Shown one piece after another: positions 51,053 to 58,463 of a DNA stretch of 64,000 nucleotides. Both the position numbers and the translations under genes were made by a program. The notes under the pieces were generated by a model, which saw only the letters and a program-made list of their open reading frames with translations, was not told the DNA's origin and did no database searches. The stretch is from Buttiauxella massiliensis (GTDB lineage: Bacteria > Pseudomonadota > Gammaproteobacteria > Enterobacterales > Enterobacteriaceae), in the NCBI RefSeq assembly GCF_902500225.1, contig NZ_LR722648.1, forward strand, positions 265,676-329,675, given 5' to 3'. Position 1 is the first letter of the stretch, and every line of letters begins with the position of its first letter.

Positions 51053-52444
51053 CTACTTCAGACTCGCCCCATTACTGGCAATCACTTCTTTATACCAGTT
51101 GAAGCTTTTCTTACGTCGGCGCTCAAGGGTACCGTTGCCCTGGTCGTCGCGATCGACATAGATAAAGCCGTAGCGCTTAGATAACTCAGCTTTCGATGCG
51201 CTCACCAGGTCAATTGGCCCCCAGCAGGTGTAGCCCAGCACTTCAACACCATCTTCAATCGCTTCGCGCACCTGCACCAGGTGGTCGTTGAGGTAGCTAA
51301 TGCGGTAGTCGTCATGCACTGTGCCATCGGCTTCGAGCTTGTCTTTAGCACCAAGGCCGTTTTCAACAATAAACAGCGGCTTTTGATAACGATCCCACAG
51401 CTTGTTGAGCAAAATACGCAGGCCTACTGGGTCAATCTGCCAGCCCCACTCAGAACTCGGCAGGTGCGGGTTTGGCACCATATTGAGGATATTGCCACGC
51501 GCCTTCTCATTCAGAGCTTCATCAGAAGTGACGCAACCCGTCATGTAATAGCTGAACGAAATAAAGTCGATTGTGGTTTTCAGCGCTTCGCGGTCGCTAT
51601 CTGAGATCTCAAGCTTAATGCCGTTGTCGCGGAAGTAACGCAGCATATAACCCGGGTACTCGCCCCGGCACTGCACATCACCAAAGAACAACCAGTTGCG
51701 GTTTTCCTGCATGGTTTCCAGCACGTCTTCTGGCTTACAGCTCAGCGGATAAACCAGGCCACCAAGCAGCATGTTACCGATACGCGCATCAGGAATGATT
51801 TCGTGGCAGGCTTTCACGGCCAACGCACTGGCAACAAGTTGATGGTGAATCGCCTGATAAATTTCTGCTTTGCTGCTGCTCTCACTTAGCCCAACACCCG
51901 TCATTGGCGCATGCAGCGACATGTTGATTTCGTTAAACGTCAGCCACAGTTTCACTTTGTTTTTATAACGCGTGAACACGGTGCGGGCGTAACGTTCAAA
52001 GAATGTGATGACTTCACGATTGCCCCAACCGCCATAATTTTTCACCAGTCCCCACGGCATTTCGTAGTGGGACAGGGTCACCATTGGCGTGATGTTATGT
52101 TTCGCCAATTCATCAAACAAACGGTCGTAATAGGCAAGGCCCGCTTCATTTGGCTGAGTTTCGTCCCCTTGCGGGAAAATACGCGTCCAGGCAATGGAAA
52201 CGCGCAGGCAGCTAAAGCCCATTTCTGCAAATAGCGCGATATCCTCTGGGTAGCGGTGGTAGAAATCAATGGCGACATCTTTAATGCCAAAATCACCTGG
52301 TTTGCGTTCGGCGACATCACCAAATACGCCATGCGGCTGAACGTCGGACGTAGAAATCCCCTTTCCGTCTTCCTGCCACGCGCCTTCTACCTGATTTGCG
52401 GCAATCGCGCCGCCCCACAGAAACTTCTCAGGAAATGCTTTCAT
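51053..52444 (-). CDS. bglB: BglB, 6-phospho-beta-glucosidase (GH1)
   Basis: The 463-residue GH1 enzyme begins [20 protein letters not shown] and has the acid/base Glu in TFNEIN and the nucleophile Glu in IVENGLG. It is closer to E. coli BglB than to AscB or BglA (for example [17 protein letters not shown] and [10 protein letters not shown]). It cleaves phosphorylated aryl-beta-glucosides or cellobiose imported by BglF. It is the last gene of the operon, 10 bp after bglF. Confidence 0.95.
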
Positions 52445-52454
52445 CTACTTCTCC

Positions 52455-54320
52455 TTAATGTTGAACCGTCAGGAACGGCATGCCCGAATCAATGGAATGG
52501 CTATTAGTCATACGTGTCACTGCTGTGTATTCATCGCTATTGCTGATAATCACCGGTGTTGCCAGGTCGTACCCAGCATCCAGGATGGCCTGTCTGTCGA
52601 ATTCAATGAGCAGGTCACCTGGCTTAATTTTGTCCCCCACTTTCACATGGGTCGTGAAGTGCTGACCATTCAGTTTTACCGTATCAATACCAATGTGAAT
52701 CAGTACTTCAATGCCGCTATTGCTAAGTAAACCAATGGCATGGCGTGTCTGGAATAACGACGCTACTTCGCCATTGAAAGGTGCGATAACCTTGCCTGTC
52801 AGCGGGATTATCGCCGCCCCTTCGCCAAGCAAACCGCTGGCGAATGTGGAATCTGGAACTTCATTCATAGCCAGAACCGTGCCACTCATTGGCGCAAGGA
52901 TGTCGTTTTCTGTTGGCTGGACGATAGCGATTTCTGTTGCCACTTCACTACGCGGTAACCCGGCGATATAGGTCATGATACATGCCAGAGAAAACGCCAG
53001 CACGGTCCCAAGAATCGCGCCCCATACGGATATATCGACCCCAGTTGGCGGAATAATCTGCGAAAAAGTGAACACGCTAACCAAGCCAAATGAAAATACG
53101 CTGGTCTGGCAATACCCGATAATCACACCGCCGACAGCCCCTGCCACACAACCAAAGATAAACGAACGACGGTTTGGCAATGTCACCCCATACACGGCCG
53201 GTTCGGTGATACCAAAAATTCCTGCCGTGACCGCCGATCCTGCCAGCACTCTAAGCTTCTTATCGCGGGTGCGAAGTAACACGCCTAGCGTTGCCCCCAC
53301 CTGCCCCATGACCGCGGGCAATAACAAAGGCACCATTGTGTCGTAGCCAAGTACGCTCAAGTTATTGATCATTAAAGGGACTAATCCCCAGTGCAGGCCA
53401 AAGATGACGCAAATCTGCCAGACCGCCCCCATAAATCCGCCCGCCAGCCATGGTGCAAAGGCATAAATCGCCTGATAACCATGGGCCAGAGTCTGGCTCA
53501 GCCAGGTCGCCGCCGGGCCAATCAATAAGAATGTCAGCGGCACAGTGATGGCCAGACAAAACAATGGCGTAAAGAAGTTACGCACCGCAGATGGCAGCAG
53601 TTTATTGAAGTGTTTTTCAAGCCAGCAACTCACCCATGCGGCAAAAATAATCGGGATCACCGATGAACTGTAGTTAATGAAGGTTATCGGTATGCCAAGA
53701 AAATACTCTTGAACACCAGCCGGTTGGCTGGTCACTTCAAACGCTTGAAGCATCAGCGGATGCGTCAGCGCACCGCCAATCGCCATGGTAAGAAACGGGT
53801 TGCCACCGAATTTCTTACCAGCGGTGTAACCCAGTGCCAGCGGGAAGAAATAAAACAGCGAGTCGCTTGCAGCAAACCAAAGCTTATAAGTTCCGCTATC
53901 GGTGGCAAGCCAGCCACAGACAACTGCCAGCGCCAGCAAACCTTTCAGAATCCCTGAGGCAGCCATCACACCAAGGAACGGCGTAAATATCCCTGAGACA
54001 ATATCAATCAGCCGCCCTAGTAGATTGACCTTCTGCGCAGATGTTTGCAGCACTTGTTCCTGGTCGTCAGTTATCCCCGCCAGGTCGCGCACCGAGTTGT
54101 AGACATCGTGCACATGGTTGCCAATCACCACCTGGAATTGCCCGCCGCTTTCCACCACCATAATCACGCCAGGATTTTTTTTCAGGGCATCTGCATTGGC
54201 ATTTTTATGGTCTTTAAGCTTAAATCGCAGGCGCGTAGCGCAGTGTACCAGGCTGACTATATTTTCTCGCCCACCGACATGGGTCAGAATATCTCTTGCA
54301 ACGTCTTGATATCCCATCAT
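52455..54320 (-). CDS. bglF: BglF, beta-glucoside PTS permease EIIBCA
   Basis: The 621-residue protein has domains in the order EIIB (phosphorylated Cys27 in [10 protein letters not shown]), EIIC (about residues 100-450, including [10 protein letters not shown]) and EIIA (C-terminal, with active-site His in [11 protein letters not shown]). It matches E. coli BglF (625 aa). It phosphorylates beta-glucosides during uptake and also phosphorylates BglG to control antitermination. A RAT/terminator lies immediately upstream. Confidence 0.96.
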
Positions 54321-54366
54321 TCTTTCCTTTCACCTTTCGGCATATGTGTCTGAGTAAAATTCAAAA

Positions 54367-54437
54367 AAAACCTGAGACCGACTTCCCGCAAGAAGAAGCC
54401 AGTGCTCAGGTTTTGCCTGCCGCAGCAGTAACAATCC
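54367..54437 (-). promoter_or_regulatory. BglG-responsive RAT and terminator in the bglG-bglF gap
   Basis: On the minus strand GGATTGTTACTGC-N4-GCAGGCAAAACCTGA (54437-54406) is the ribonucleic antiterminator target. It overlaps a terminator stem CTCAGGTTTT (54414-54405 complement) / AAAACCTGAG (54376-54367) followed by a U run. This copy corresponds to E. coli bgl t2. Confidence 0.92.
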
Positions 54438-58291: not shown

Positions 58292-58351
58292 ATAAATCCC
58301 CAGAAGCAAGAAAAATGGTAACTTAATTGCAGATCGCCTTCTGACAAAAAC

Positions 58352-58415
58352 AAAAAAACCCGCCCCCCCTTAAATAAGGAGGTTCAGGTTTTGCCTGCTT
58401 AAGCAGTAACAATCC
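58352..58415 (-). promoter_or_regulatory. RAT and terminator upstream of bglH (operon leader)
   Basis: A third RAT (GGATTGTTACTGC-N4-GCAGGCAAAACCTGA, 58415-58384 on the minus strand) overlaps a GC-rich terminator stem (CCTCCTTA... with TAAGGGGGGGCGGGTT) followed by seven U. Only the 4-nt loop of the RAT differs from the other two. Confidence 0.9.
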
Positions 58416-58435
58416 AATAATCTATTACGCTGTCG

Positions 58436-58463
58436 ATAATAAACATCAGCAGATTTAAGGCAA
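58436..58463 (-). promoter_or_regulatory. Candidate sigma-70 promoter of the bgl operon
   Basis: On the minus strand TTGCCT (58463-58458) and TATTAT (58441-58436) are 16 bp apart, placing a start near 58429, about 14 nt before the first RAT. Confidence 0.5.

Follow-up and report, generated by a model that had tools for sequence, protein, structure and literature searches.

Two candidate transcription units with three BglG-type RNA switches and a conserved putative bglG promoter in the bgl locus of a Buttiauxella genome

We describe a bgl locus in a Buttiauxella genome, analysed within a 64-kb stretch of DNA (the window), where the minus strand carries in this order rhlE, dusC, RAT1, bglH, yieL, RAT2, bglG, RAT3, bglF and bglB. 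The locus very probably comprises two tandem transcription units that would share one common antiterminator, BglG. The sites, their order, the conserved promoter elements and a single CAT_RBD gene are seen directly. Strong comparative evidence indicates that a conserved putative bglG promoter, P2, is kept upstream of RAT2, so that transcription from it most likely meets one terminator ahead of bglG and two ahead of bglFB, as in E. coli, with bglH-yieL as a separate unit.

The gene assignments are given in Table 1. The bglG product scores above the cut-off of the NF007295 BglG profile and combines the CAT_RBD domain with the two PRD domains of an antiterminator; a genome-wide search of the source genome found no other CAT_RBD gene. 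The stretch RAT2-bglG-RAT3-bglF-bglB has the canonical bgl layout, i.e., bglG between two RAT/terminators followed by bglF and bglB. The E. coli order, in which bglH-yieL come after bglB, is not found, since bglH-yieL stand upstream of bglG here. The order bglG-F-B-H-yieL that had been stated for E. coli was checked in NC_000913, where yieK follows, and is correct; E. coli has two RATs, as stated. Megablast with the whole locus gave zero matches among E. coli genomes.

Table 1. Features of the bgl locus in window coordinates and, below them, positions of tandem RAT pairs in loci of relatives
Feature	Position	Strand	Basis or remark
P1, putative bglH-yieL promoter	58436..58491	-	conserved block; hexamers from consensus scan
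P1 CRP-like right half-site TCACA	near 58485	-	conserved block
P1 TTGCCT-N16-TATTAT	58463-58436	-	consensus scan, by itself not above chance
RAT1	58384..58415	-	exact pattern match
Terminator 1, overlaps 3' end of RAT1	58352..58390	-	-21.6 kcal/mol, z -4.1
bglH-like LamB-family porin	56711..58291	-	PF02264, PF11471; 63% identity to E. coli K-12 BglH
yieL-like esterase, CBM48 + Esterase domains	55477..56664	-	PF00756, PF02922; 68% to E. coli YieL
P2, putative bglG promoter	55413..55473	-	profile, conservation, joint CRP/-10 pattern
P2 CRP-like CGCGA-N6-TCACG	55473-55458	-	alignment with relatives
P2 TTGAGA-N16-TAGAGT with TG (extended -10)	55440-55413	-	alignment with relatives
RAT2	55372..55403	-	exact pattern match
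Terminator 2, overlaps 3' end of RAT2	55339..55378	-	-18.9 kcal/mol, z -4.7
bglG antiterminator, CAT_RBD + 2 PRD	54470..55312	-	PF03123, two PF00874 stretches, NF007295; 61% to E. coli BglG
RAT3	54406..54437	-	exact pattern match
Terminator 3, overlaps 3' end of RAT3	54363..54412	-	-27.7 kcal/mol, z -6.1
bglF beta-glucoside PTS permease IIABC	52455..54320	-	NF007335, PF00358/PF02378/PF00367; 55% to E. coli BglF
bglB 6-phospho-beta-glucosidase	51053..52444	-	PF00232, NF007356; 77% to E. coli BglB
Terminator-like hairpin 3' of bglB	51014..51037	-	consensus match only
Tandem RATs, L017	6130/6241		
Tandem RATs, L018	6123/6235		
Tandem RATs, L026	6123/6236		
Tandem RATs, L022	5860/5958		
Tandem RATs, L024	5976/6069		
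Tandem RATs, L084	5972/6070		
Tandem RATs, L131	9266/9362		same genus as L133
Tandem RATs, L133	9172/9079		same genus as L131
Tandem RATs, L028	4091/4189		

The pattern GGATTGTTACTGC-N4-GCAGGCAAAACCT has three exact matches on the minus strand of the window and none in 100 shuffles, and a pattern with a variable loop returns the same three sites. Their loops read TTAA, GTAT and TGCG, and the rest of the 32 nt is identical, as the original prediction had described. At Rfam's gathering score the sole match in the window is RybB (1805-1883), the RATs being unmatched. At all three sites the last RAT bases, AACCTG, form the 5' arm of a terminator hairpin that ends in a T run, and for each of the three none of 200 shuffles folded as well (z from -4.1 to -6.1). 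The proposed overlap of each RAT with a terminator is borne out by these hairpins, and each pair of overlapping elements precedes genes to be controlled. When up to 3 mismatches were allowed with the loop fixed, the three window RATs were the only ones found genome-wide. With one CAT_RBD gene and three RATs in the genome, BglG is the sole candidate found for all of them; together with the near-identity of the RATs, this supports by inference the idea that one BglG serves all three. The hairpin at RAT3 of the B. agrestis locus (L012, position 10216) is longer than the others, and fixed-loop patterns miss this RAT.

The case for P2 comes from comparison. In Buttiauxella genomes without bglH-yieL, a compact promoter block lies directly upstream of the bglG RAT; it consists of an inverted CRP-like site, with its centre 62.5 nt upstream of the RAT, a -35 element of TTGAG/TTGTG type and an extended -10 whose hexamer begins 15 nt upstream of the RAT. 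Both the window and B. agrestis carry this block in unchanged register, placed after the yieL stop codon and before RAT2. A generic promoter scan gave 10 sites in the window, against a chance expectation of 10.4, and cannot tell P2 from chance, so conservation was used instead. We built a profile from 11 relatives that have no bglH-yieL at that place (leave-one-out scores 29.7-96.9), omitting L119 and L122, two of the 13 promoter sequences, as out of register. With this profile the 80 nt that precede RAT2 reach 37.2 bits and their B. agrestis counterpart 33.9 bits; of the 127,840 positions in the window, no other exceeds -9.9. The scores upstream of RAT1 (-67.6) and RAT3 (-89.0) are those of a register-bound profile, for which a displacement of one or a few nt makes even related promoters (L119, L122, RAT1 of L102) look like unrelated sequence.

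Within the block the window keeps 23 of 26 invariant columns versus 18 of 45 variable ones (Fisher p 6e-5). The P2 interval is identical to that of B. agrestis at 67/73 positions, compared with 58% of third codon positions in yieL (p 4e-9); in yieL, bglG, bglB and dusC the third positions of the two are 58-65% identical. The left half-site CGCGA deviates from the CRP consensus, and a loose CRP pattern alone first matched elsewhere before RAT2; the joint layout of CRP-like element and extended -10 yields the aligned site and occurs once in the window, both strands considered. Among 53 bglG copies the CRP-like element is present in 36 and the -10 pattern in 22, and neither was found before E. 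coli bgl and its nearest relatives (L129, L077, L036). This agrees with the statement, in an excerpt of PMC2646131, that the promoter regions of E. coli bgl and these relatives are non-homologous. If the P2 start is assumed to lie 7 nt after the -10, the RAT begins at +4, a spacing within 1 nt of that between the mapped S. mutans bglP start and its RAT (excerpt of PMC1489936).

These elements bear on the order of the switches. The original prediction placed three terminators in the path of BglG to bglFB, and two of them before bglG itself. The conserved putative promoter before RAT2 argues against both, as it would leave one terminator before bglG and two before bglFB. An internal promoter before bglG had been named in advance as the decisive observation, and a serial operon would have no promoter between yieL and bglG; conserved elements of one are present there, as far as sequence can tell. 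Three terminators in series would apply only to transcripts starting at the bglH promoter or further upstream. We consider it quite improbable that the locus is a single operon transcribed from P1 alone, although its genes are collinear, its three switches are serial on the DNA and the terminator scan found no further terminator-like site between yieL and RAT2. The bglG promoter elements are highly conserved upstream of RAT2, and a relative that did lose them has lost more than the promoter. Its locus, L013 (from G351, a member of the window's family), reads RAT-bglH-yieL-bglG-RAT-bglF-bglB; the gap between yieL stop and bglG start is 8 nt, and the bglG RAT is missing along with the promoter. 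Its bglG truly follows the porin unit, yet it stands behind one terminator. The steeper induction threshold that was predicted from three serial terminators is likewise unlikely, as P2 elements are conserved before bglG.

Unit 1 would be formed by P1, RAT1 with its terminator, bglH and yieL. That the porin and esterase genes come first under a RAT of their own, as originally proposed, is supported by the order, RAT1-bglH-yieL preceding RAT2-bglG. B. agrestis (L012) and L013 both conserve the P1 block GGTCACAnACTATTTAAATAAnCATTGC. The whole interval between dusC and RAT1, AT-rich with 27.8% GC and a conceivable target of H-NS silencing, is identical to that of B. agrestis at 90/108 positions. 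Another unlikely arrangement is that P2 is active but readthrough from P1 supplies most of the induced bglFB mRNA, BglG feeding back on its own synthesis via both promoters. The two units have no separate terminator between them and all RATs should answer to one protein, as this arrangement would have it, but the P2 interval (67/73) is better conserved than the dusC-RAT1 interval.

In the preferred reading of two units, unit 2 would be an ordinary two-switch unit, P2-RAT2/terminator-bglG-RAT3/terminator-bglF-bglB, with its own putative CRP-type promoter. The BglG/BglF switch and activation by Crp are established for E. coli. Without beta-glucoside, BglF would hold BglG inactive; P1 transcripts would then end at terminator 1 and P2 transcripts at terminator 2 or 3, with some BglG supplied by leakage past the terminators. 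With inducer present, active BglG would bind the three near-identical RATs; unit 1 would require one readthrough, bglG one and bglFB two, as in E. coli. RNA from P1 that has passed terminator 1 may continue through RAT2 and RAT3 into unit 2, because no other terminator is seen between yieL and RAT2, and the RAT2 terminator would also mark where unit 1 ends. We infer from these features that both promoters are active, that CRP binds and that RAT1 responds to BglG.

The arrangement recurs in relatives, whose loci were drawn from RAT or yieL searches and form a biased sample. Among 12 Buttiauxella genomes, yieL is present in 2 and bglG (at least 90% identity) in 11, G005 giving a weak partial match only. 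Four of these 11 have three RATs, with bglH-yieL in the window genome and in B. agrestis and oprD-surE in G009 and G011; the other seven have two. Nine fetched loci, including the window, share the layout RAT-module-promoter-RAT-bglG-RAT-bglF, the module being bglH-yieL, oprD-surE, oprB or surE. Outside Buttiauxella, with modules named by Pfam, it is oprB in G084, G078 and G028 (oprD-surE lying further upstream in the last), surE in G075 and oprD-surE in G081. The CRP-like element precedes the bglG RAT in 9/9 of these loci, in 8/9 together with the -10 pattern; dusC is seen in 7/9, all but L104 and L120, and L104 also yielded no bglB. The bglH-yieL-bglGFB order with three RATs, originally proposed for a search in related genomes, is shared by B. 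agrestis.

Not all loci conform. L112 and L130 have oprB between dusC and bglG, and no RAT was found before oprB; in L013 and L113 a RAT-led module is followed directly by bglG, with no RAT between. L110 and L114 read RAT-oprD-RAT-bglG with bglF-bglB divergent, and L122 has three RATs, the first two only about 0.4 kb apart. The variable-loop scan (loops of 5-14 nt) gave 152 matches over 134 loci versus 4 in reversed and 0 in block-shuffled sequences; it covered 148 records less 14, namely 11 short loci (L001-L011) and 3 duplicates (L098, L135, L126). The pattern is loose; judged by sequence, one of its matches, at 11012 within the bglF gene of L099, is spurious. Fixed-loop patterns undercount, missing the RAT that L103 and L121 do have before bglG. 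In a family sample yieL was found in 67/391 genomes (E <= 1e-80). At least 11 of the 66 besides the window genome have a fixed-loop RAT on the same strand up to 10 kb upstream, within about 2 kb of yieL in G351, G249 and G336, and none of the 66 shows one between yieL and a following bglG; these RAT counts come from two result sets joined by eye and, with variant loops missed, are lower bounds. Genes for OprD-family porins, for SurE-family proteins that probably carry a signal peptide, or for both, lie beside RATs in L099, L101, L121, L103, L105, L108, L109, L110, L114 and L134; since these genes recur there in bgl loci, they may belong to the BglG regulon of those genomes.

In Klebsiella and Kosakonia/Phytobacter, bglH-yieL stands alone in eight fetched loci and is led by a serial double switch, two tandem RAT/terminators spaced 93-113 nt; in L028 this leader precedes bglF-bglH-yieL (Table 1). 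One RAT of the pair is usually the ACCGC...GCGGG variant, as between bglG and bglF in E. coli. G200 and G336 each yielded a single CAT_RBD gene, at another place in the genome, so that control, if by this family, would be in trans; the 7 other tandem-leader genomes checked have two CAT_RBD genes each. Genes for YieL-like esterases (74-78% identity) are found among Klebsiella plasmid records (H11-H14, H20), and the bglH-yieL module may consequently travel on plasmids.

The window cluster itself appears to be a mosaic. G007, which has no yieL, matches dusC, bglB and the lysR gene at 89-98% identity (the last 100 nt of the dusC side excepted), while the stretch from RAT2 through bglG and bglF down to about 52820 is 69-87% identical to it. 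Trees of rhlE+dusC place the window with G007, those of bglF with B. agrestis and those of bglG with G002. Given the break in identity and the conflicting trees, homologous recombination among Buttiauxella lineages most likely imported or reshuffled the cluster from about 58580 to 52820. Import of an entire L013-like operon was not adopted as an explanation, as bglG, bglF and bglB of L013 are no closer to the window than Buttiauxella copies. More generally, and tentatively, the region preceding the bglG promoter, in most cases bounded by dusC and bglG, may be a modular slot in Enterobacteriaceae that RAT-led outer-membrane modules enter by recombination, gaining BglG control at once; elsewhere similar modules with one or two RATs would be driven in trans.

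If this is true, an RNA-switch regulon grows by recruiting RAT-bearing outer-membrane modules while the regulator keeps its own promoter, and RAT-tagged plug-in uptake modules would be a growth route for a PTS-sensing RNA regulon. It would also correct the view that the permease here is made only after BglG has passed three terminators. Whether serial terminators sharpen induction is a question better suited to the leaders with tandem RATs in relatives. Among the matches listed in literature searches that covered few subscription papers, and in excerpts of the papers cited here, neither enterobacterial bgl loci with three or tandem RATs nor a RAT-led outer-membrane module beside bglG came up. 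Judged by title and the start of the abstract, none of the matches on Buttiauxella and bgl has bgl regulation as its subject.

The system is of a known kind, laid out in an unusual way that nonetheless recurs. More interesting are the outer-membrane module led by a RAT next to bglG and, in relatives, the leaders with tandem RATs. Clostridium acetobutylicum bglGTH is likewise a BglG-controlled PTS operon with RATs before and after bglG, but the excerpt of PMC12628678 describes tests that point to a single promoter, the gap between bglG and bglT lacking one of its own, and the operon has no porin module. The stand-alone bglH-yieL of Klebsiella and Kosakonia/Phytobacter are similarly under RAT control, but with two tandem RAT/terminators in one leader and no bglG found within the fetched locus. 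E. coli bgl (bglG-F-B-H-yieL-yieK) has orthologous proteins (55-77%), a BglG-type antiterminator and RAT/terminators before bglG and bglF, with a Crp-dependent promoter and two terminators flanking bglG (excerpt of PMC9499468). In contrast, the window has bglH-yieL before bglG, a third RAT, a putative P1 and no yieK; the E. coli promoter is without P2 elements, and its second RAT is the variant, whereas those of the window are identical except for the loop. Also related are the bglGFB units linked to dusC (= yohI) in Enterobacter (Ent638_2739-2742) and Klebsiella (KPN_02577-02581), as given in an excerpt of PMC2646131. They occupy the same site beside dusC with the same bglG-F-B unit and two terminators, the window having a third before its bglH-type porin, unlike the KPN_02580 type; in Klebsiella, too, a porin lies between dusC and bglG.
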